Source: a virus
Virus record (IMG/VR): IMGVR_UViG_3300037861_000061
Location: 1-30,659 of that record
Strand: one strand, 5' to 3'
DNA: 30,659 bases
Shown here in pieces: positions 8,318 to 22,897 of this stretch (positions are counted from its first letter, which is position 1; each line of letters begins with the position of its first letter). Made by a program: the position numbers and the translations under genes. The notes below the pieces were generated by a model, which saw nothing but the letters and a program-made list of their open reading frames with translations, had not been told where the DNA came from and searched no databases.

Positions 8318-9560
8318 AGACCTAGATGCATTACTTGGAGTAGGCACAGACGGCGCTAGCGGTGACGTTCGGCGTGAGCGTGGTTCACACCCGAAAGGGT
8401 GGCAGCCTAGCATTGAGTTTGACGGCAATTCTGGAACGGCCACGCTCCCACCGAGCGAAGGTGTCCCGAACTTTGACGATTTTTTGATTGAGCAAGGATT
8501 TGACCCCGCCGAGTATCGTGTTGTCGGCGCTCCTAGAACTTCCCGGTGGCAGACATACTATGGCGACTGGCTCTGCAGCTACCGGTTTAACTTTGAAAAG
8601 ATAGGCAGCGCTGCAGCGGAGGTTGACCTAGAGGCAATAATCAAGGCAGCTAAGGGCGCTAAGACCAAGCCGCTGACGGCGGCCCTCAATGAGCGGGCTT
8701 ACTTTATACAAATAACAGACTTGCAGGCCGGTCAAGCTGATGGTGATGGCGTTCAAGGAATGGTAGACAGGGCGCTGCAGATTCCAGCACTGGTTGCAGC
8801 CGACCTAAAGCTGCTCAAGAAGGCAGGCACTCCAGCGACTTCTATCTTCGTGCCGGTGACAGGTGACCTAGTTGAGGGCATTAGCGGTTGGTATGAAATG
8901 CAAACCTTTAGCGTAAGTCTTGACCGGCGTGAGCAGACAAAGCTGGTCAGAAGAATGTTGTCACAGATAATTATTGAGCTAGCCAGCCACGGGCTTCCAG
9001 TTCATGTTGCAGTAGTACCGGGAAACCACGGTGAAAACAGACAAAATGGCAAGGCCTACACGACCCTAGGTGACAACGATGATGTTGCAGTGGTTGAGCA
9101 GATAGCCGAAGCGTTCAAGATGACAGACAAAATGCAGCACGTTACATTCAGCTTCCCGGCCAATAACAGATTGTCTTTGACGGTTGAAGTGATGGGTTGG
9201 GTCGTAGCTCTTACTCATGGCCACTTGGCTAGGTCAGGAAGCAGCCCTACTCAGAAGGTGGCTAACTGGTTTAAGACCATGGCCGGTATAAAAGACCCAG
9301 TGGGTGACGCTGAGATTCTGTTCGTGGGACATTACCACCATCTAATCTTGACTCAACTTATTGGAGACGTTGTAATGATTATGGGCGGAGCTCTTTGTGA
9401 CGCGTCTGATTGGTTCACCCAGAGCTATGGGTTGGTCAGTGACCCGTGCATTGTCAAGGGGACAATTACTGCAGACAAGAAAATTGAGAACTTTATGCCA
9501 TACTTCTGGGATAGAAGCAGACCACAATCAACCTTGATAGGCAGCGAAAATGTCACTTGA
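8310..9560 (+). CDS. Calcineurin-like metallophosphoesterase (Mre11/SbcD-like nuclease candidate)
   Basis: 416 residues from the ATG at 8310; a GTG at 8280 is also in frame. The metallophosphoesterase motifs appear in order: TDLQ (D137, Q139), GDLVE (D186), GNHGE (N239, H240), THGH (H303, H305) and GHYHH (340-344). These bind two metals and cut phosphodiesters; phage members are often called Mre11-like double-strand-break nucleases. The first motif reads D-x-Q instead of the usual D-x-H. The first 125 residues form an N-terminal domain of unknown role. It lies between DNA-binding and sigma-like genes and ends 11 bases into the next gene. Confidence 0.8.
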   Translation: MDKDLDALLGVGTDGASGDVRRERGSHPKGWQPSIEFDGNSGTATLPPSEGVPNFDDFLIEQGFDPAEYRVVGAPRTSRWQTYYGDWLCSYRFNFEKIGSAAAEVDLEAIIKAAKGAKTKPLTAALNERAYFIQITDLQAGQADGDGVQGMVDRALQIPALVAADLKLLKKAGTPATSIFVPVTGDLVEGISGWYEMQTFSVSLDRREQTKLVRRMLSQIIIELASHGLPVHVAVVPGNHGENRQNGKAYTTLGDNDDVAVVEQIAEAFKMTDKMQHVTFSFPANNRLSLTVEVMGWVVALTHGHLARSGSSPTQKVANWFKTMAGIKDPVGDAEILFVGHYHHLILTQLIGDVVMIMGGALCDASDWFTQSYGLVSDPCIVKGTITADKKIENFMPYFWDRSRPQSTLIGSENVT

Positions 9561-10140
9561 CCTAACTTCACGCGAACTGGAGCTGGCAGAGAAGGCAGCC
9601 CGCCGGATTGGCAACCGGTGGACGGCGGTAGAGGTAGAAGACTTGACTTCGTTTCTATACCTATGGCTGGTTGAGCACCATCAAACTTTGACCCGTTGGA
9701 GAGAAGAACCTTACGGTGACGGAAAACTCTATGTGAGCCTTAAGCGCGAGGCCGCCAAGTATTGCGCCGCAGAGCAAGCGGCCAGAGTAGGCCGTCCAAT
9801 TCATGCTGAAAACTTCTACACCTCAACGCTATTGACTAGAGCTATGCCATACCTTTTTGAGGACGTAGCTCAAACGACAGTGACCGTAGACCCTCGCACC
9901 GGCGCTCCACAGAAAATGGACGGAGAGTTCAACGAAGCGGTCACAATAATGGCTGACATCAGTGGGGCTTATCATGGACTGCAGGGCCACATTCGAGAAG
10001 TGCTTGCATTACGTTTCAGAGACGGTCTAACTTACGAGGAAATCGGTGAGCTTAGAGGCCTAACCAAGGACGGTGCATTGAAGCAGGTGCAGCGCGCCCT
10101 TGACAGGCTATCTAACGCCCTTTCAGGTCAACCCCTATAG
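9550..10140 (+). CDS. Sigma-factor-like helix-turn-helix protein
   Basis: 196 residues. The last 50 residues match sigma-70 region 4: VLALRFRDGLTYEEIGELRG, then KDGALKQVQRALDRL. The front part (residues 27-80) has the helical, aromatic look of a reduced sigma region 2 (VEDLTSFLYLWLVEH, then LKREAAKYC), but I cannot assign it firmly. It may act as a phage sigma factor or an activator for middle or late genes, or only as a DNA-binding protein. It overlaps the phosphoesterase gene by 11 nt and runs into whiB tail to tail, their stop codons abutting. Confidence 0.75.
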   Translation: MSLDLTSRELELAEKAARRIGNRWTAVEVEDLTSFLYLWLVEHHQTLTRWREEPYGDGKLYVSLKREAAKYCAAEQAARVGRPIHAENFYTSTLLTRAMPYLFEDVAQTTVTVDPRTGAPQKMDGEFNEAVTIMADISGAYHGLQGHIREVLALRFRDGLTYEEIGELRGLTKDGALKQVQRALDRLSNALSGQPL

Positions 10141-12210: not shown

Positions 12211-12553
12211 GTTTCCAAACGATGTCATAAAAGAGCTGGCTCACATAAGGCAGCAGTCCGAGAAAGGCGTACAGATACTAGCTGACGCTGAAATCAAGTA
12301 TGTTGAGCTGGAGCTGGAAGCAGACAAGGCAGAGTATTCAGCGTTTCTAGACTCTACCGGCAACGTAGCCGAGCGCAACGCCTTGAGTAAGCTCCTAAGC
12401 CTCTCAAAGCGCCGTGACGCTGAGTTAGCTAAGGTAGAGGTCAACCGTGTCAAAGTGAAGCTTAGACAGCTCAGTGAGGGCATGAACGCTACTCAAACAG
12501 CCGGCAAAATGATTGAACTGCAGTGGCGAACAGCGGGCGTGGGTGAACGCTAA
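12203..12553 (+). CDS. Coiled-coil protein of the recombination module, unknown function
   Basis: 116 residues from the TTG at 12203, chosen because GAGGAG (12190-12195) lies seven bases before it; an in-frame TTG at 12188 has no such site. The protein is almost entirely charged helix: IKYVELELEADKAEYSAFLD, then KRRDAELAKVEVNRVKVKLR. It sits between the annealing protein and an HNH gene, where many phages have a small accessory gene for recombination or replication. No family recognised. Confidence 0.65.
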   Translation: MIEFPNDVIKELAHIRQQSEKGVQILADAEIKYVELELEADKAEYSAFLDSTGNVAERNALSKLLSLSKRRDAELAKVEVNRVKVKLRQLSEGMNATQTAGKMIELQWRTAGVGER

Positions 12554-12908
12554 ACAGTTCCAGCGCCTTCTTGACCGAGACAGCTATTGCCTACATTGTG
12601 GCGAGCAGGAAGCCGTGGCCCCGAACCACAGAGCTAATCGCGGGATGGGCGGGAGCAAGCTTCGTGACGGGTCGGAGAATCTGATTGTCTTATGCAGCGA
12701 GATGAACGGCTTGATTGAAAGCGACTCAAGGGCAGCTGAGCTGGCAAAAAAATACGGCTGGAAGCTTGAAAGCTGGGAGAAGCCTCTTGAAATTCCAGTG
12801 CATGACCTAGTTTCTGGAGTTGCTTACTTGCTAAATAATAGTTTTGGCCGTAAAGTCATGTTGCTTGAAGGGAGCAACCATGAGCGTAACGAAGGTTTAC
12901 CGGCTTGA
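12543..12908 (+). CDS. HNH-type endonuclease-like protein
   Basis: 121 residues from the GTG at 12543, giving MNAKQFQRLLDRDSYCLHCG; a TTG 30 bases earlier is possible but weaker. Zinc pair C16-x2-C19, then PNHRANRGMGG with H29, and NLIVLCSEMNG with C51, form the HNH-like core seen in many actinophage replication modules. The C-terminal half is helical (DLVSGVAYLLNN). It could nick or process DNA during replication. It overlaps the genes on both sides (11 and 29 nt). Confidence 0.7.
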   Translation: MNAKQFQRLLDRDSYCLHCGEQEAVAPNHRANRGMGGSKLRDGSENLIVLCSEMNGLIESDSRAAELAKKYGWKLESWEKPLEIPVHDLVSGVAYLLNNSFGRKVMLLEGSNHERNEGLPA

Positions 12909-15787: not shown

Positions 15788-15994
15788 ATGCCTGACTTAG
15801 TAAATAACCCGCTGCACTATACAAGTCACCCCAGCGGTGTTGAGGCCATAGAAATAACGCGACACATGAACTTCAACCTAGGGAACGCGCTCAAGTACAT
15901 CTGGCGCTCAGACCTAAAGGGGAATAACATTCAAGACCTTGAGAAGGCTCGGTTTTACATAGAGGACGAAATTCAGAGAATTACCAACCGGTGA
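15788..15994 (+). CDS. DUF3310 protein (T7 gp1.7-type, nucleotide-kinase-related)
   Basis: 68 residues from the ATG at 15788; an in-frame TTG at 15773 would add five residues, and neither start has a strong ribosome site. The family sequence is unmistakable: NNPLHYTSHPSGVEAIEITR, then MNFNLGNALKYIWRSDLKGN and DLEKARFYIEDEI. T7 gp1.7 of this family phosphorylates nucleotides; many short phage copies, like this one, contain just this helical domain and their activity is untested. It precedes the ParB/PAPS-reductase cassette. Confidence 0.85.
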   Translation: MPDLVNNPLHYTSHPSGVEAIEITRHMNFNLGNALKYIWRSDLKGNNIQDLEKARFYIEDEIQRITNR

Positions 15995-16016
15995 TGTATC
16001 TACAATGTATCTACAT
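15995..16016 (+). repeat. Tandem repeat TGTATCTACA(A/T), two units
   Basis: Two 11-base units lie head to tail between the DUF3310 stop and a strong AAGGAGG (16017-16023). They are one helical turn apart and stand right before the first gene of the ParB/PAPS-reductase cassette, so they may bind a regulator. Confidence 0.6.
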
Positions 16017-16027
16017 AAGGAGGCAAC

Positions 16028-16615
16028 ATGGAAATCAAGGCAGTAGCACTAAGCGACCTAATCTTTGACCCTAAGAACGCCAGAAAGCACCCTGACGAAA
16101 ACTTGAGCGCGCTGCAGGCGAGCCTAAAAGAGTTTGGACAGCGTAAGCCTATTGTCATTGACTCCGGTGGCGTAGTAATCGCGGGAAACGGAACTCTAAA
16201 GGCCGCCATGAACCTAGGCTGGTCTACTATTGAAGTAGTTGAGGTTCCTGCAGCTTGGAGCGCTGAAAAGATTACAGCTTTTGCCCTAGCAGACAACCGA
16301 ACTGCAGAGCTTGCTCAGTGGGACGCGCGTGAACTGTTAAGCCAGTTAGAAAGCCTTGACAGCTTTGACATGAGCGCTTTTGGCTTTGATGAGTGGAACC
16401 GGCCCGAAGATACTGAGTCAACCGGCGGTGAAAGCCCTGAGTCAAAGGGCCTAGGCACTCCAATAATTAGCTTTGAGATTATCTTTGATACCTCAGAGCA
16501 ACAATCGGTCTGGTTTGAGTTCTTGAAGGTGGCCAGAATAGAACACCCTGATGCTGAGACTAACGCTGGCCGTATAACCTCAGCCCTTACGGCCTACATG
16601 GAGGGCAGCGAATGA
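16028..16615 (+). CDS. ParB/Srx-like nuclease-domain protein
   Basis: 195 residues with a very strong AAGGAGG before the ATG. Residues 5-100 are a ParB N-terminal-like domain: SDLIFDPKNARKHPDENLSA, KEFGQRKPIVID, VVIAGNGTLKAAMNLGW and ALADNRTAELAQWD. The G-N-G version is the form often linked to phage or mobile-element DNA modification genes, not to chromosome partitioning. Residues 145-195 add an unassigned alpha/beta domain. It leads a six-gene run with overlaps. It may bind nucleotide or nick DNA; which is not shown. Confidence 0.82.
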   Translation: MEIKAVALSDLIFDPKNARKHPDENLSALQASLKEFGQRKPIVIDSGGVVIAGNGTLKAAMNLGWSTIEVVEVPAAWSAEKITAFALADNRTAELAQWDARELLSQLESLDSFDMSAFGFDEWNRPEDTESTGGESPESKGLGTPIISFEIIFDTSEQQSVWFEFLKVARIEHPDAETNAGRITSALTAYMEGSE

Positions 16616-16878
16616 CTCCCGTGCCAGTTACACTTTATACGACCCCAAATTGCGTCCAGTGCGCTGCTACAGCTAGACAACTTGAGAAGCACGGCATTGA
16701 GTTCAAGACGGTAGACCTATCTAAGCACCCTGAGCTCTTAGAAAAGTTCAAGGCAGAGGGTCACATGTCTGCGCCGATAGTAACCACCGACATCAAAACG
16801 TGGTCTGGCTTTCGTATAACCAAAATCAAGAGCTTGGCTCAATACATAGCCTCAGAGGACAAAAGTGGCAAGGTATAA
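16612..16878 (+). CDS. nrdH: NrdH-like glutaredoxin
   Basis: 88 residues with the thioredoxin-fold pattern LYTTPNCVQCAATARQLEKH (active site C14-x-x-C17), FKTVDLSKHPELL, then SAPIVTT and WSGFRITKI. NrdH redoxins pass electrons to ribonucleotide reductase. No reductase gene is present here, whereas a PAPS-reductase-like enzyme, which also needs a thiol donor, follows with a 14-nt overlap. A role as electron or sulfur-transfer partner of that enzyme is therefore attractive, though feeding host reductase remains possible. Confidence 0.88.
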   Translation: MTPVPVTLYTTPNCVQCAATARQLEKHGIEFKTVDLSKHPELLEKFKAEGHMSAPIVTTDIKTWSGFRITKIKSLAQYIASEDKSGKV

Positions 16879-17917
16879 GAAATACATAGAGGTAGACGTA
16901 CTTGAGGAAGCCAAGAAGCGGATTCACCATGTCTACGACATCTTTGACAGCGTGGTTGTATGTTTCTCCGGCGGCAAAGATAGCTTGGCAGTGCTGCACC
17001 TAGTGCATGAGGTAGCAAAAGAGCGCGGAATAGACACCGTGGACGTAGTATTTCGGGACGAGGAGCTAATACCCGAGACGGTTATTGAGTTCGTGAACTA
17101 TTACCGGCAGCTACCATGGGTCAACATGAAGTACTTGACGCTACCTCTTGAATCAACCAAGTTCATCCTCGGTCAGACTCATGAGTACGTGCAGTGGGAC
17201 CCTTCTCGCGAGTGGGTAAGGCCTAAGCCAGAACACGGTCTAAATAATAGCGACATGGGATACCCAGAAGGCAAGACTTGGAACCAGTACAACACTGACG
17301 AATTGACCGCCTCTTGGTACAAGGGTAAAGTCGCGTTAGTAAACGGCATTAGGTCAAGCGAAAGCCTCATGCGTTATCGCGCCTCAGTAAATAAGCTCAA
17401 TGAGAACTACATCAACGCCTCCGGCTCAAAGCGGGCCAAGCTTGTCAAGCCCCTCTTTGACTGGGAGGAAAACGACATCTTTCGATACTTTTATGACGCT
17501 GAAATCAAGTATTGCCCTATCTATGACACCCAAATCTGGAACGGGTCAGAGTTACGCGTAGCAACGCCGCTCCACGCCGAGGCGGCCAAGAAGCTTTCAG
17601 GACTTAGCTCACTTGACCCCCAATTGTATGAGCAGCTTATGGTCGTGTTTCCAGAGACAGCCGTTCAGGCACGTTATTGGCGTGAGTATGACCGTAATGC
17701 CGTGGTCGAGAAGTATGGCCATAGCTATGCCGGCGTTCACGACTGGATTATGAAGCACCTAGACAACGGGCAGCAGAAAAAGGCGCTGCACGAACTTAGG
17801 TCAATTGAGGCTAGGGCAATAGCTTCCCCTCACAGCTATCCAGCAGATTACGTACTGAAAGCTATGGTGGCCGGTCAATTCAAGCGAGTAATTCAACCTA
17901 TGCAAAGGAAGAAATGA
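16865..17917 (+). CDS. PAPS-reductase-like ATP-pyrophosphatase enzyme (IbrA/DUF3440-like)
   Basis: 350 residues starting at GTG after GAGG. The PP-loop SGGKDS (35-40) binds ATP. Later hallmarks are VFRDEEL, NGIRSSESLMRYRA and a KYCPIYDTQIWNG section. The superfamily includes PAPS reductase, DndC (DNA phosphorothioation) and the IbrA group. Because it is flanked by a redoxin and two ParB-like genes, I favour the IbrA type, part of a two-protein IbrA/IbrB set known from E. coli as a regulator; a nucleic-acid sulfur chemistry is speculative. Cysteines are few, unlike iron-sulfur PAPS reductases. Confidence 0.85.
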   Translation: MARYKKYIEVDVLEEAKKRIHHVYDIFDSVVVCFSGGKDSLAVLHLVHEVAKERGIDTVDVVFRDEELIPETVIEFVNYYRQLPWVNMKYLTLPLESTKFILGQTHEYVQWDPSREWVRPKPEHGLNNSDMGYPEGKTWNQYNTDELTASWYKGKVALVNGIRSSESLMRYRASVNKLNENYINASGSKRAKLVKPLFDWEENDIFRYFYDAEIKYCPIYDTQIWNGSELRVATPLHAEAAKKLSGLSSLDPQLYEQLMVVFPETAVQARYWREYDRNAVVEKYGHSYAGVHDWIMKHLDNGQQKKALHELRSIEARAIASPHSYPADYVLKAMVAGQFKRVIQPMQRKK

Positions 17918-18456
17918 CAATTCAAGACCCAATTGACAGCATTGAGTGGGTAGAAGCCTCCTCCTTGAAGGCAAACTACTGGAACCCAAACAGAGTTCAC
18001 AAGCCGGAGATGAAGCTTCTTGAGCACTCACTTCTTACTACCGGCTGGATACAACCTATTCTGGTGAACAAGAACGGTGTCGTAATTGACGGCTTTCACC
18101 GCTGGAGACTTACCCAAGACAGTAAGAAGGTGCTAGAGCGCTACAAGGGCCGTCTGCCGGTTGCAGTGTTGCCAGTTGAGGACGATGAGGCTATGGCGAT
18201 AACCGTCAGAATAAATAGGGCCAAGGGGACTCACGCGGCGGTGGAGATGCACAAACTGGTTCAAGCGTTAGTGGACGATTACGGCTGGTCAAGAGAACAA
18301 ATTGCTCAGGAGATTGGCGCTCACAAAAACGAGGTAGACCTTCTACTGCAGTCTGGAGTGTTTCAAGCCCGCGACATCAAGAATTGGGCCTACTCAAACG
18401 CTTGGTATCCGGCAGAAGGGAAGTTTGATGAGCCAAATCAAGGAAGTGAGCTATAA
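17914..18456 (+). CDS. IbrB-like ParB-domain protein
   Basis: 180 residues overlapping the previous gene by ATGA. A ParB-like domain includes NYWNPNRVHKPEMKLLEHSL, GWIQPILVNKNGVVIDGFHR (DGFHRW at 59-64), then AMAITVRINRAKGTHAAVEM. A helix-turn-helix follows (SREQIAQEIGAHKNEVDLLL, 126-145) and the end has SNAWYPAE. Adjacent IbrA-like and IbrB-like genes are a known pair. Its G-F-H-R box differs from the G-N-G of the first ParB-like gene, so the two are not simple duplicates. Confidence 0.82.
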   Translation: MTIQDPIDSIEWVEASSLKANYWNPNRVHKPEMKLLEHSLLTTGWIQPILVNKNGVVIDGFHRWRLTQDSKKVLERYKGRLPVAVLPVEDDEAMAITVRINRAKGTHAAVEMHKLVQALVDDYGWSREQIAQEIGAHKNEVDLLLQSGVFQARDIKNWAYSNAWYPAEGKFDEPNQGSEL

Positions 18457-18826
18457 TCAAGCCATGAAACTATTCCAGTATTTGTACAAGATGGAAAACC
18501 TCCCCAGCGGACCGGTTGCAGGTGGGACATGGTATGCCAGTGATGGCTCATGCGCTGCACTGGTCAAGATTGGGAACGGCAAGAAGTACAGAATAAAAGG
18601 CACTGTCACAGCTCCGGAGCTACGCGGTGAGGGTTATGGAGACGCTATGTTGCGTCACTTGATAGCTATGGCCGTAGAACGCGGTGCAGAGGTTATTGAG
18701 TCCTATGCTAAAGAGCCGGCGTGGTACTTACGTAACGGCTTTGAGGTCAATAGGGTGACCAAGTGGGGCGTAACCGTAGTTCAAAAGAACCTGCTAAGCT
18801 CTGTTGATGGTAAGCAGAGCGTATAA
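18428..18826 (+). CDS. GNAT-family acetyltransferase-like protein
   Basis: 132 residues from the ATG at 18428, chosen for AAGGG (18416-18420) seven bases ahead; ATG 18464 lacks a site. Acyl-CoA motif A is seen as GTVTAPELRGEGYGDAMLRH (R66-G-E-G-Y-G), and the fold ends with EPAWYLRNGFEV. GNAT enzymes move acyl groups to small molecules, proteins or, in the related Mom protein of phage Mu, modify DNA bases. Being locked into the cassette (29-nt overlap with the IbrB-like gene, 20-nt with the HNH gene) argues for a shared pathway. Confidence 0.78.
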   Translation: MSQIKEVSYNQAMKLFQYLYKMENLPSGPVAGGTWYASDGSCAALVKIGNGKKYRIKGTVTAPELRGEGYGDAMLRHLIAMAVERGAEVIESYAKEPAWYLRNGFEVNRVTKWGVTVVQKNLLSSVDGKQSV

Positions 18827-19262
18827 CGGTTTTCCGGCAACATACCGCGACAAACAGGGCGGCAGGGTCTACAGAGAGTTCCGCTCAGGCAAGCAGATAC
18901 GTCCTGACACCTGCAGGCTATGCGGGCTAAAAGACTATGAAGCAACGGTGCAGGCCCACAATGAGGACTACCATGAGCCAGACACGTTCATAGGCATCTG
19001 CTTTTATTGCCACATGGCCGTACATAAGCGGTTTGACTCCTTGAAGCGATGGCAGAAGTGGCGTGAACTGGTATCAAGCGGGTGGCAACCACCTCGCAAC
19101 CGCGACTATCGTATTTTTATAAAAGTTTGGGACGACATTCTGGCCGTTTCCAACCAAAACCCCCAGACCACAGACTATTCCAATTGGGCATGGACTCTAA
19201 CTGACTACGAGCCTGACCTTTATTCGCCTAGAGCCGCAGAGCTCGGCCTACCTCCTTTATAA
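18807..19262 (+). CDS. HNH-like zinc protein of the cassette
   Basis: 151 residues from the ATG at 18807. Two zinc pairs, CRLC (C36, C39) and CFYCH (C65, C68), bracket VQAHNEDYHEPDTFIGI (H51, H56), with H73 in MAVHKRF, matching a small HNH nuclease fold. The C-terminal 70 residues are rich in Trp and Asp with no recognised motif. It may be a nuclease or a metal-binding adaptor. It closes the cassette, with a promoter for the next genes following within 30 bases. Confidence 0.65.
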   Translation: MVSRAYNGFPATYRDKQGGRVYREFRSGKQIRPDTCRLCGLKDYEATVQAHNEDYHEPDTFIGICFYCHMAVHKRFDSLKRWQKWRELVSSGWQPPRNRDYRIFIKVWDDILAVSNQNPQTTDYSNWAWTLTDYEPDLYSPRAAELGLPPL

Positions 19263-21826: not shown

Positions 21827-22174
21827 GTGCTGGCCCCAACACCATGTATAGAGACTGACTGCCCCGACAAAACTTTTAAGGGGGGCAGGTGTATCCAACA
21901 TCAAAGACCATGGGCGGGGTCTACCCGTAAGAGCCGACTACCAAGCGACTGGTCAACACGTAGGCTCATAGTCTTGAAACGTGATAATGGTATCTGTTAT
22001 TTATGCGGGGGTGCAGGAGCAGACACGGTAGACCACGTTGAAGTAGGTGACAACCACTCACTGAGCAACCTAGCTGCAGTTCACGACCACGTGGCCCCAC
22101 ACTGCCACCGGTCTAAGAGCAGTAAAGAAGGACACGAAGCTAAGGCTTCCATGCGCCCTAGGCCACGTAACTAG
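21827..22174 (+). CDS. HNH endonuclease of the packaging module
   Basis: 115 residues starting at GTG with AGGAGA ahead. Zinc pairs (C57-x2-C60 in CYLC; C93 and H94 in HCH) frame the HNH core DTVDHVEVGDNHSLSNLAAV (D69, H70, N81), ending RSKSSKEGHEA. A second cysteine cluster lies near the front (C7, C12, C22). HNH proteins next to terminase are needed for cos cleavage and maturation in several phages with cohesive ends. The next 207 bases are non-coding and may hold cos. Confidence 0.88.
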   Translation: MLAPTPCIETDCPDKTFKGGRCIQHQRPWAGSTRKSRLPSDWSTRRLIVLKRDNGICYLCGGAGADTVDHVEVGDNHSLSNLAAVHDHVAPHCHRSKSSKEGHEAKASMRPRPRN

Positions 22175-22381: not shown

Positions 22382-22897
22382 ATGGCTAGTACAGGAAGGC
22401 CTACAGGACGTCCAGCCAAGCCGGTTGAGGTCAAGAGGGCATTAGGCAATCCCGGCAAACGCCCGCTGCCTGACGCTCCTACTCCTGACACGGGTATGCC
22501 TGCAGCCAAAAAGATTCCAGACGCTCCAGTTCTAGGTGCAGACGGCAGGCTCTTATGGGAGCAGATTTGGATAGCCGGAAAGACTTGGCTAAGCCCCGCT
22601 GCAGACTCTCACATAATTACTATGCTTTGTCAGACTCATGATGAAGCCGAGGACATTCGCCGAGCAATCGCAATTGGCGAGGTTCCTCGTTTTTACAAGT
22701 TGCCGAACGGAAGTTTTGTGACTCACCCTCTGGTCGTTCAGCTAAAGGATTGCAGAACGCAAGCAACGGCATGGTTAGCCGCAATTGGGTTTAGTCCGGC
22801 AGATAGAGCTAGACTAGGTCTAGGCGAAGTCAGACAGTCTGATGAATTTGATGAACTAAATGCTCGCCGAGCGAATCGCATGAGGGCCGGTGCATGA
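22382..22897 (+). CDS. terS: Terminase small subunit, P27 family
   Basis: 171 residues. The Pro/Lys-rich front (GRPTGRPAKPVEVKRALGNP) and a helical body (LLWEQIWIAGKTWLSP, SHIITMLCQTHDEAEDIRRA) with a late FSPADRARLGLGEV are typical of P27-type small terminases. These recognise the packaging site and bring in the large subunit. The gene is directly downstream of the candidate cos region. ATGA overlap with the next gene. Confidence 0.85.
   Translation: MASTGRPTGRPAKPVEVKRALGNPGKRPLPDAPTPDTGMPAAKKIPDAPVLGADGRLLWEQIWIAGKTWLSPAADSHIITMLCQTHDEAEDIRRAIAIGEVPRFYKLPNGSFVTHPLVVQLKDCRTQATAWLAAIGFSPADRARLGLGEVRQSDEFDELNARRANRMRAGA

Follow-up and report, generated by a model that had tools for sequence, protein, structure and literature searches.

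A phage gene cassette of two ParB-fold proteins, a PP-loop enzyme and an HNH-like zinc protein with a swappable acyltransferase or methyltransferase

The locus and its genes

The window analyzed here is a whole stretch of 30,659 bases of siphophage DNA, positions 1 to 30,659 of the virus record IMGVR_UViG_3300037861_000061. It contains a run of six overlapping genes, five of which belong to a cassette that is conserved across divergent phages. The genes and the two features that precede them are the following.

15994 to 16015, plus strand: two tandem copies of the 11-bp repeat ATGTATCTACA, which overlap the upstream DUF3310 gene at its stop
16017 to 16023, plus strand: strong Shine-Dalgarno sequence AAGGAGG for ParB-1
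16028 to 16615, plus strand: ParB-1, 195 aa, ParB/sulfiredoxin fold, core member
16612 to 16878, plus strand: NrdH-like redoxin with CVQC, a lineage-specific addition
16865 to 17917, plus strand: PP-loop ATP-pyrophosphatase-type enzyme of the PAPS-reductase superfamily, 350 aa, with SGGKDS, core catalytic member
17914 to 18456, plus strand: IbrB-like ParB, 180 aa, with DGFHRW and INRAKGTH, core member
18428 to 18826, plus strand: GNAT acyltransferase with the acyl-CoA motif RGEGYG; in other phages this slot holds an S-adenosylmethionine (SAM) methyltransferase
18807 to 19262, plus strand: HNH-like "YNGF" zinc protein with two CxxC pairs

All six open reading frames (ORFs) lie on the plus strand and each was confirmed. 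A preliminary description of this stretch, made from the letters alone, had reported six genes overlapping by 4 to 29 nucleotides behind an AAGGAGG and an 11-base tandem repeat, and the coordinates agree, with successive overlaps of 4, 14, 4, 29 and 20 nucleotides. Two starts are possible for each of the last two genes (18425 or 18428 for the GNAT gene, 18804 or 18807 for the HNH-like gene); the overlaps are counted from the ATG starts at 18428 and 18807, which match the relatives. The PP-loop ORF starts with GTG. The motifs that had been named (SGGKDS, CVQC, GNG, DGFHRW, RGEGYG and the two CxxC pairs) are all present.

Conservation of the cassette

Family profiles built from six alignments were run across all fetched loci, and collapsing the PP-loop proteins at 90% identity left 68 non-redundant clusters. 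Both ParB-1 and the IbrB-like ParB are found in 68/68 of these, a transferase in 61 (GNAT in 33, SAM methyltransferase in 28, both in 0) and the HNH-like protein in 58; the counts depend on the profile thresholds, divergent transferases may escape them and the contigs are often incomplete. Some loci had been fetched through the HNH-like protein, the methyltransferase or the GNAT, so the fair subset is the one found by the PP-loop protein alone. Its 42 clusters hold ParB-1 in 42, the IbrB-like ParB in 42, GNAT in 23, methyltransferase in 13 and the HNH-like protein in 35. As a control we used 75 ordinary IbrA/IbrB loci, where ParB-1 occurs in 2, GNAT in 1, and the methyltransferase and HNH-like protein in 0. 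ParB-1, the PP-loop enzyme, the IbrB-like ParB, a transferase and the HNH-like protein thus form a conserved cassette, with a co-occurrence far beyond chance.

The order ParB-1, PP-loop, IbrB-like is kept in 16/16 viral contigs with close PP-loop relatives (52-82% identity). Elsewhere the order is shuffled (IbrB last, HNH inverted or HNH first) and the gene content is retained. This retention across highly divergent phages despite the shuffling, together with one gene fusion, supports the view that the five genes form one system. The preliminary description had expected all six genes to stay adjacent beyond chance, which holds for these five and fails for the redoxin.

Searches in the reverse direction gave a similar picture, with the PP-loop gene present in 36 of 40 loci found by the methyltransferase, in 6/6 close relatives of the GNAT and in 59 of 72 loci found by the HNH-like protein. 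Ten of the 13 HNH-like loci without a PP-loop gene are truncated by a contig end close to the HNH-like gene and three (L113, L120 and L156) truly lack it. The earlier concern that GNAT and HNH relatives might occur free of the PP-loop/ParB pair is therefore mostly answered, by 59 of about 62 HNH-like loci with enough flanking sequence and by the six GNAT loci. These searches were seeded with cassette members, so their counts describe relatives of the cassette and not distant relatives elsewhere.

A transferase slot with two occupants

The GNAT of the window matches Pfam Acetyltransf_7 (3.9e-7). Only ordinary GNAT matches were obtained for it, and the profile searches gave no match to the Mom family (Mom itself was not compared). 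In many of the 16 close contigs, the IbrB gene is followed instead by one for a class I SAM methyltransferase (ARR-FPE motif), after which comes the gene of the same HNH-like protein. This second occupant was absent from the preliminary description, which saw the GNAT only. The two are mutually exclusive in the 68 clusters (Fisher 7e-13). A maximum-likelihood tree of 69 PP-loop sequences, obtained with a careful search and containing long branches, requires at least 15 switches between them, and its well-supported branches force 11-12 changes per label. One slot is filled by either the GNAT or the methyltransferase, with repeated exchange between the two. When non-homologous enzymes substitute for one another in an otherwise fixed gene set, their jobs are usually equivalent, which suggests that each would add a small group to the product of the core.

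Locus L227 has a further GNAT-like protein that escapes the profile. In L128 a gene at 193-939 that weakly resembles halogenase D (Fe/2-oxoglutarate family, E 0.0025) lies beside a truncated cassette's HNH and transferase-like genes; this gene is a possible additional tailoring enzyme.

The PP-loop enzyme and the redoxin

The PP-loop protein has a full-length match to PHROG 2302 (5.1e-113) and another to Pfam PAPS_reduct (5.6e-16), and SGGKDS is kept in 114/114 relatives. It scores far below the cut-offs of the CysH families (22.8 bits against 254 for TIGR02057 and 26 against 165 for TIGR00434) and of the DndC family TIGR03183 (25 against 290), and it gave no match at E<=1 to DUF3440, the IbrA-type extension. 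None of its cysteines is invariant across the 114 relatives. C217 was considered as a catalytic cysteine when it seemed invariant among 14 sequences and was then rejected; it is kept in 103/114 relatives and lost in 11 (A in 8, S in 2, P in 1), and there is no second conserved cysteine. DndC, by comparison, requires an Fe-S triad and a cysteine dyad (PMC10853773).

An AlphaFold2 (AF2) model built with aligned relatives from viral contigs (predicted local distance difference test, pLDDT, 87.8) is nearest to FAD synthase/FMN adenylyltransferase, then to PAPS reductase, CysD, TtuA and TilS; TM-scores are only 0.3-0.4 over the query, so the comparison places the fold and not the substrate. The missing invariant cysteine, the missing DndC and CysH cysteine features and the adenylyltransferase-like folds make redoxin-fed thiolation unlikely, and in this model-based comparison adenylation appears the more likely activity of the PP-loop enzyme than sulfur transfer. 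The same findings go against the thiol or phosphorothioate chemistry considered in the preliminary description.

The redoxin matches Pfam Glutaredoxin (1.3e-12) and carries the CVQC motif, and with the NrdH model TIGR02194 it reaches 80.7 bits, under the cut-off of 85.75. Its gene is confined to the window and two close relatives. With an occurrence in three related contigs only, it was rejected as a member of the joint pathway in which it had earlier been placed; it is an incidental local addition outside the conserved system.

The two ParB-fold proteins

ParB_N homology with the Box I (GxxR-like) and Box II (N..R) motifs assigns these proteins to the ParB/sulfiredoxin fold, with Pfam ParB_N scores under the cut-off for ParB-1 and the IbrB-like protein alike. 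ParB-1 matches PHROG 620 (1.6e-37), PHROG 498 DNA methyltransferase (1.9e-34) and PADLOC MTase_II (3.1e-19), and its nearest matches are phage ParBs that stand alone and the ParB domains found fused to DNA methyltransferases. The IbrB-like ParB matches the IbrB-type PHROG 2159 (3.2e-73).

Two unusual arrangements were seen. In L113 (3094-3627) one reading frame combines ParB-1 with the C-terminal half of the IbrB-like protein and the PP-loop gene is missing, which could be a recombination product or a misassembly. In Mycobacterium phage Gaia (gp104, L359 4106-5005) an IbrB-like ParB annotated as an ectoine-synthase-like fusion adjoins a PAPS-reductase-like gene.

The HNH-like zinc protein

The invariant residues of this protein are C37, C40, H52, E54, D55, C66, C69, H70 and H74, and a strand-strand-helix is predicted at 49-75. 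The HNH label given earlier to the sixth gene is a weak one, with a PHROG endonuclease profile (2e-8) as its sole profile support. No Pfam or NCBIfam match was found, the middle of the motif, where an Asn is usual, has no conserved one, and an attempt to confirm an HNH nuclease by fold failed, as Foldseek finds no match in the PDB.

The protein travels with the transferase, being present in 56 of the 61 transferase clusters (Fisher 4e-4) and adjoining the transferase gene in 53 of these 56. In L124 (4539-5402) it is fused to a GNAT in one ORF (GNAT Pfam E 8e-12). Allowing for relatedness there are 7 independent pairs, of which 4 agree and 0 oppose (p 0.125), so that co-loss of the two genes is suggestive only.

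Proposed function

It may well be, with belief and doubt about equal on our side, that the cassette is a phage nucleic-acid modification pathway, most likely one that acts on replicated phage DNA shortly before packaging. The two ParB-fold proteins, one of them like the ParB domain of DNA methyltransferases, and the position before the terminase genes point to DNA. ParB-fold proteins also turn up again and again beside DNA modification enzymes, as with DpdB, the ParBc genes near CmoX and the ParB fusions discussed below. For the chemistry and the target we infer the following steps. The ParB-fold proteins would bind nucleoside triphosphate and DNA and position the PP-loop enzyme. At the cost of ATP, this enzyme could adenylate either a base-borne group or one on a small molecule that is to be attached to the base, in the manner of FAD synthase or TilS and not by sulfur insertion. 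The resulting nucleophile, for example an amine, would be finished by acylation (GNAT) or by methylation. The HNH-like zinc protein would assist the transferase by binding DNA or by cutting it. Once complete, the mark might shield phage DNA against the nucleases of the host or set it apart from host DNA. More tentatively, we see as possible a specific form of DNA hypermodification. A cysteine-free PP-loop enzyme, guided by the ParB proteins, would adenylate the base or group, and the cap would be an acetyl/acyl or a methyl group. One core machine would then give related phages chemically distinct marks through the swap of one gene. The preliminary description had suggested one nucleic-acid modification or host-takeover system that included the redoxin; the five other genes hold together as one system and the redoxin does not, and the modification itself is what we infer.

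Several observations weigh against a DNA modification pathway. No transferase was detected in 7 of the 68 clusters, some of which are core-only, so the transferase is not always needed, and in 5 clusters the transferase is present and the HNH-like protein absent. The methyltransferase has a class I Rossmann motif, but the (D/N)PP(Y/F) signature that marks amino-DNA methyltransferases is missing from it, which sets it apart from standard DNA methylases. Many GNATs act on protein or small molecules, and the transferase of the cassette could do so as well. The E. coli IbrA/IbrB pair is reported as an activator of gene expression and not as a DNA modifier.

PAPS-reductase-like and ParB-like genes are common and puzzling phage annotations, often filed as sulfur metabolism or partition, and the five-gene cassette unites them with a swappable acyl- or methyltransferase. 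If the proposal is true, the mark would be of a methyl type in some cultured phages and of an acyl type in their relatives. The cassette could also help to explain the role of IbrA/IbrB.

Alternative explanations and known systems

One alternative is a restriction-modification-like module, with the core and the transferase marking phage DNA and the HNH-like protein serving as the nuclease for host DNA that lacks the mark. Some phages do cut host DNA to recycle its nucleotides, and the co-travel, adjacency and single fusion of the HNH-like protein and the transferase fit such a module, as does L120, where an HNH relative adjoins a ParB gene and a helicase-methyltransferase gene. However, the nuclease assignment finds no Pfam, PDB or middle-Asn support, the HNH-like gene is missing from some otherwise complete loci, and its association with the transferase is not significant once relatedness is allowed for. 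We regard this explanation as unlikely. In L120 (312-3963), where the PP-loop gene is absent, the helicase-methyltransferase gene is large.

About equally doubtful is the modification of RNA (e.g. tRNA) or protein for host take-over, or of a small molecule, with the PP-loop enzyme acting like TilS or TtuA. Both of these are among the nearest folds of the PP-loop model, tRNA, rRNA and proteins are frequent substrates of GNATs and class I methyltransferases, and the PHROGs category of the PP-loop family is "moron, auxiliary metabolic gene and host takeover". The two ParB-fold proteins and the common pre-terminase position argue against it.

Somewhat less probable again is a regulator of the IbrAB type. 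The PP-loop/IbrB pair and ParB-1 would control phage or host expression, with the transferase and the HNH-like protein adjusting this regulator, e.g. through acetylation or methylation of a protein. The nearest named relatives, IbrA and IbrB of E. coli ECOR-9, are co-activators of prophage gene expression according to annotations and to Sandt et al. 2002 as cited in PMC8065619, and they resemble the cassette in that a PAPS-reductase-like PP-loop gene adjoins a ParB-like gene. The ParB protein DndB is also reported as an ATP-dependent repressor (PMC10853773). However, IbrA-type proteins are merely 21-31% identical to the PP-loop protein, which lacks DUF3440, and, with the few exceptions counted above, the 75 control loci lack ParB-1, either transferase and the HNH-like protein. 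IbrAB activation may itself rest on a nucleic-acid mark. An IbrA-like PP-loop gene is near the IbrB gene in 75/75 of these distant loci (L018-L092), mostly with IbrB first and in about 15 reversed.

Sulfur metabolism or phosphorothioation, with the NrdH redoxin supplying a PAPS reductase or with sulfur inserted by a DndC-like enzyme, is very improbable. It is suggested by the family names, by the redoxin gene adjoining the PP-loop gene in the window and by the DndC similarity of PAPS-reductase-like proteins noted for M. abscessus prophages (PMC8092301), and it is opposed by the restriction of the redoxin to three contigs, the lack of an invariant cysteine and the low CysH and DndC scores; sulfate assimilation was rejected on the CysH scores. 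The phosphorothioation systems DndABCDE and SspABCD and BrxP of type 4 BREX share a PP-loop enzyme with the cassette (weak DndC and BrxP matches), and the Dnd set includes a ParB-superfamily protein (DndB), but the cassette lacks the DndC cysteine set and has a GNAT or methyltransferase and a second ParB. No Dnd or Ssp gene (DndA, DndD and DndE included) was noticed beside it, although no systematic profile search of the neighbours was made. Plasmid-style partition, suggested by the ParB fold and by database names such as "ParB-like partition protein", can be dismissed almost entirely, given that no ParA gene was noticed adjoining the cassette, the NCBIfam partition model TIGR00180 scores 22 and 18.5 bits against a cut-off of 58, and the PP-loop partner is invariable.

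Other DNA modification systems resemble parts of the cassette. Mom of phage Mu is a GNAT-fold DNA modifier, but no Mom family was among the profile matches of the cassette GNAT, and we know of no PP-loop activation step in Mom or in the thymidine and cytosine hypermodification pathways. The latter are also phage pathways with a tailoring step, and ParBc genes occur near CmoX (PMC12783734). In the Dpd 7-deazaguanine system the ParB-like ATPase DpdB serves the insertion of dPreQ0 into DNA (PMC12839542), although no homologue of DpdA (the tRNA-guanine transglycosylase, TGT) or DpdC was noticed with the cassette. ParB domains are also fused to SAM methyltransferases, acetyltransferases or HNH domains, and several bind ATP, CTP or GTP (PMC12704722). 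These are the same functional partners in one chain, whereas in the cassette they are separate genes accompanied by a PP-loop enzyme; the text of that survey does not mention phosphoadenosine or IbrB. No description of the five-gene set was found in the open literature searched. The joint occurrence of these genes across unrelated phages, with one transferase or the other, suggests an undescribed pathway.

Phage distribution and genome context

The cassette is hosted by phages of Mycobacterium, Arthrobacter, Bacillus and many uncultured hosts. The methyltransferase form is found in Arthrobacter phages Salgado and Laroye, Bacillus phage 031MP004 and M. abscessus prophi79-1, and the core-only form in Mycobacterium phage Phlyer. 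Among the best 80 loci in bacterial genomes, 9 belong to this subfamily (at least 41% identity), at least 7 of them with the core, and the rest are mainly IbrA-type. This rarity fits a phage system and not a housekeeping or defence function.

The cassette commonly precedes the terminase, and the large genes just 3' of it are mostly terminase large subunits or portal proteins. In the window the terminase small subunit lies about 3 kb 3' of the cassette, at 22382, and the genes on the 5' side are for replication and recombination (YqaJ, ERF, RusA and DUF3310). The capsid protein of this phage is nearest to Mycobacterium prophages (44%). The tandem pair of ATGTATCTACA is the sole exact tandem 11-mer in the window; it was rejected as a conserved regulatory element, as none lies 5' of ParB-1 in the two closest relatives checked (L002 and L003).

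Two extra HNH-like zinc proteins, both unlike that of the cassette, are encoded at 12513-12908 (with weak DUF968 similarity) and at 21827-22174, just before the terminase small subunit. A protein at 9550-10140 has a C-terminus like sigma-70 region 4 (E 5e-5) and is possibly a phage transcription factor.

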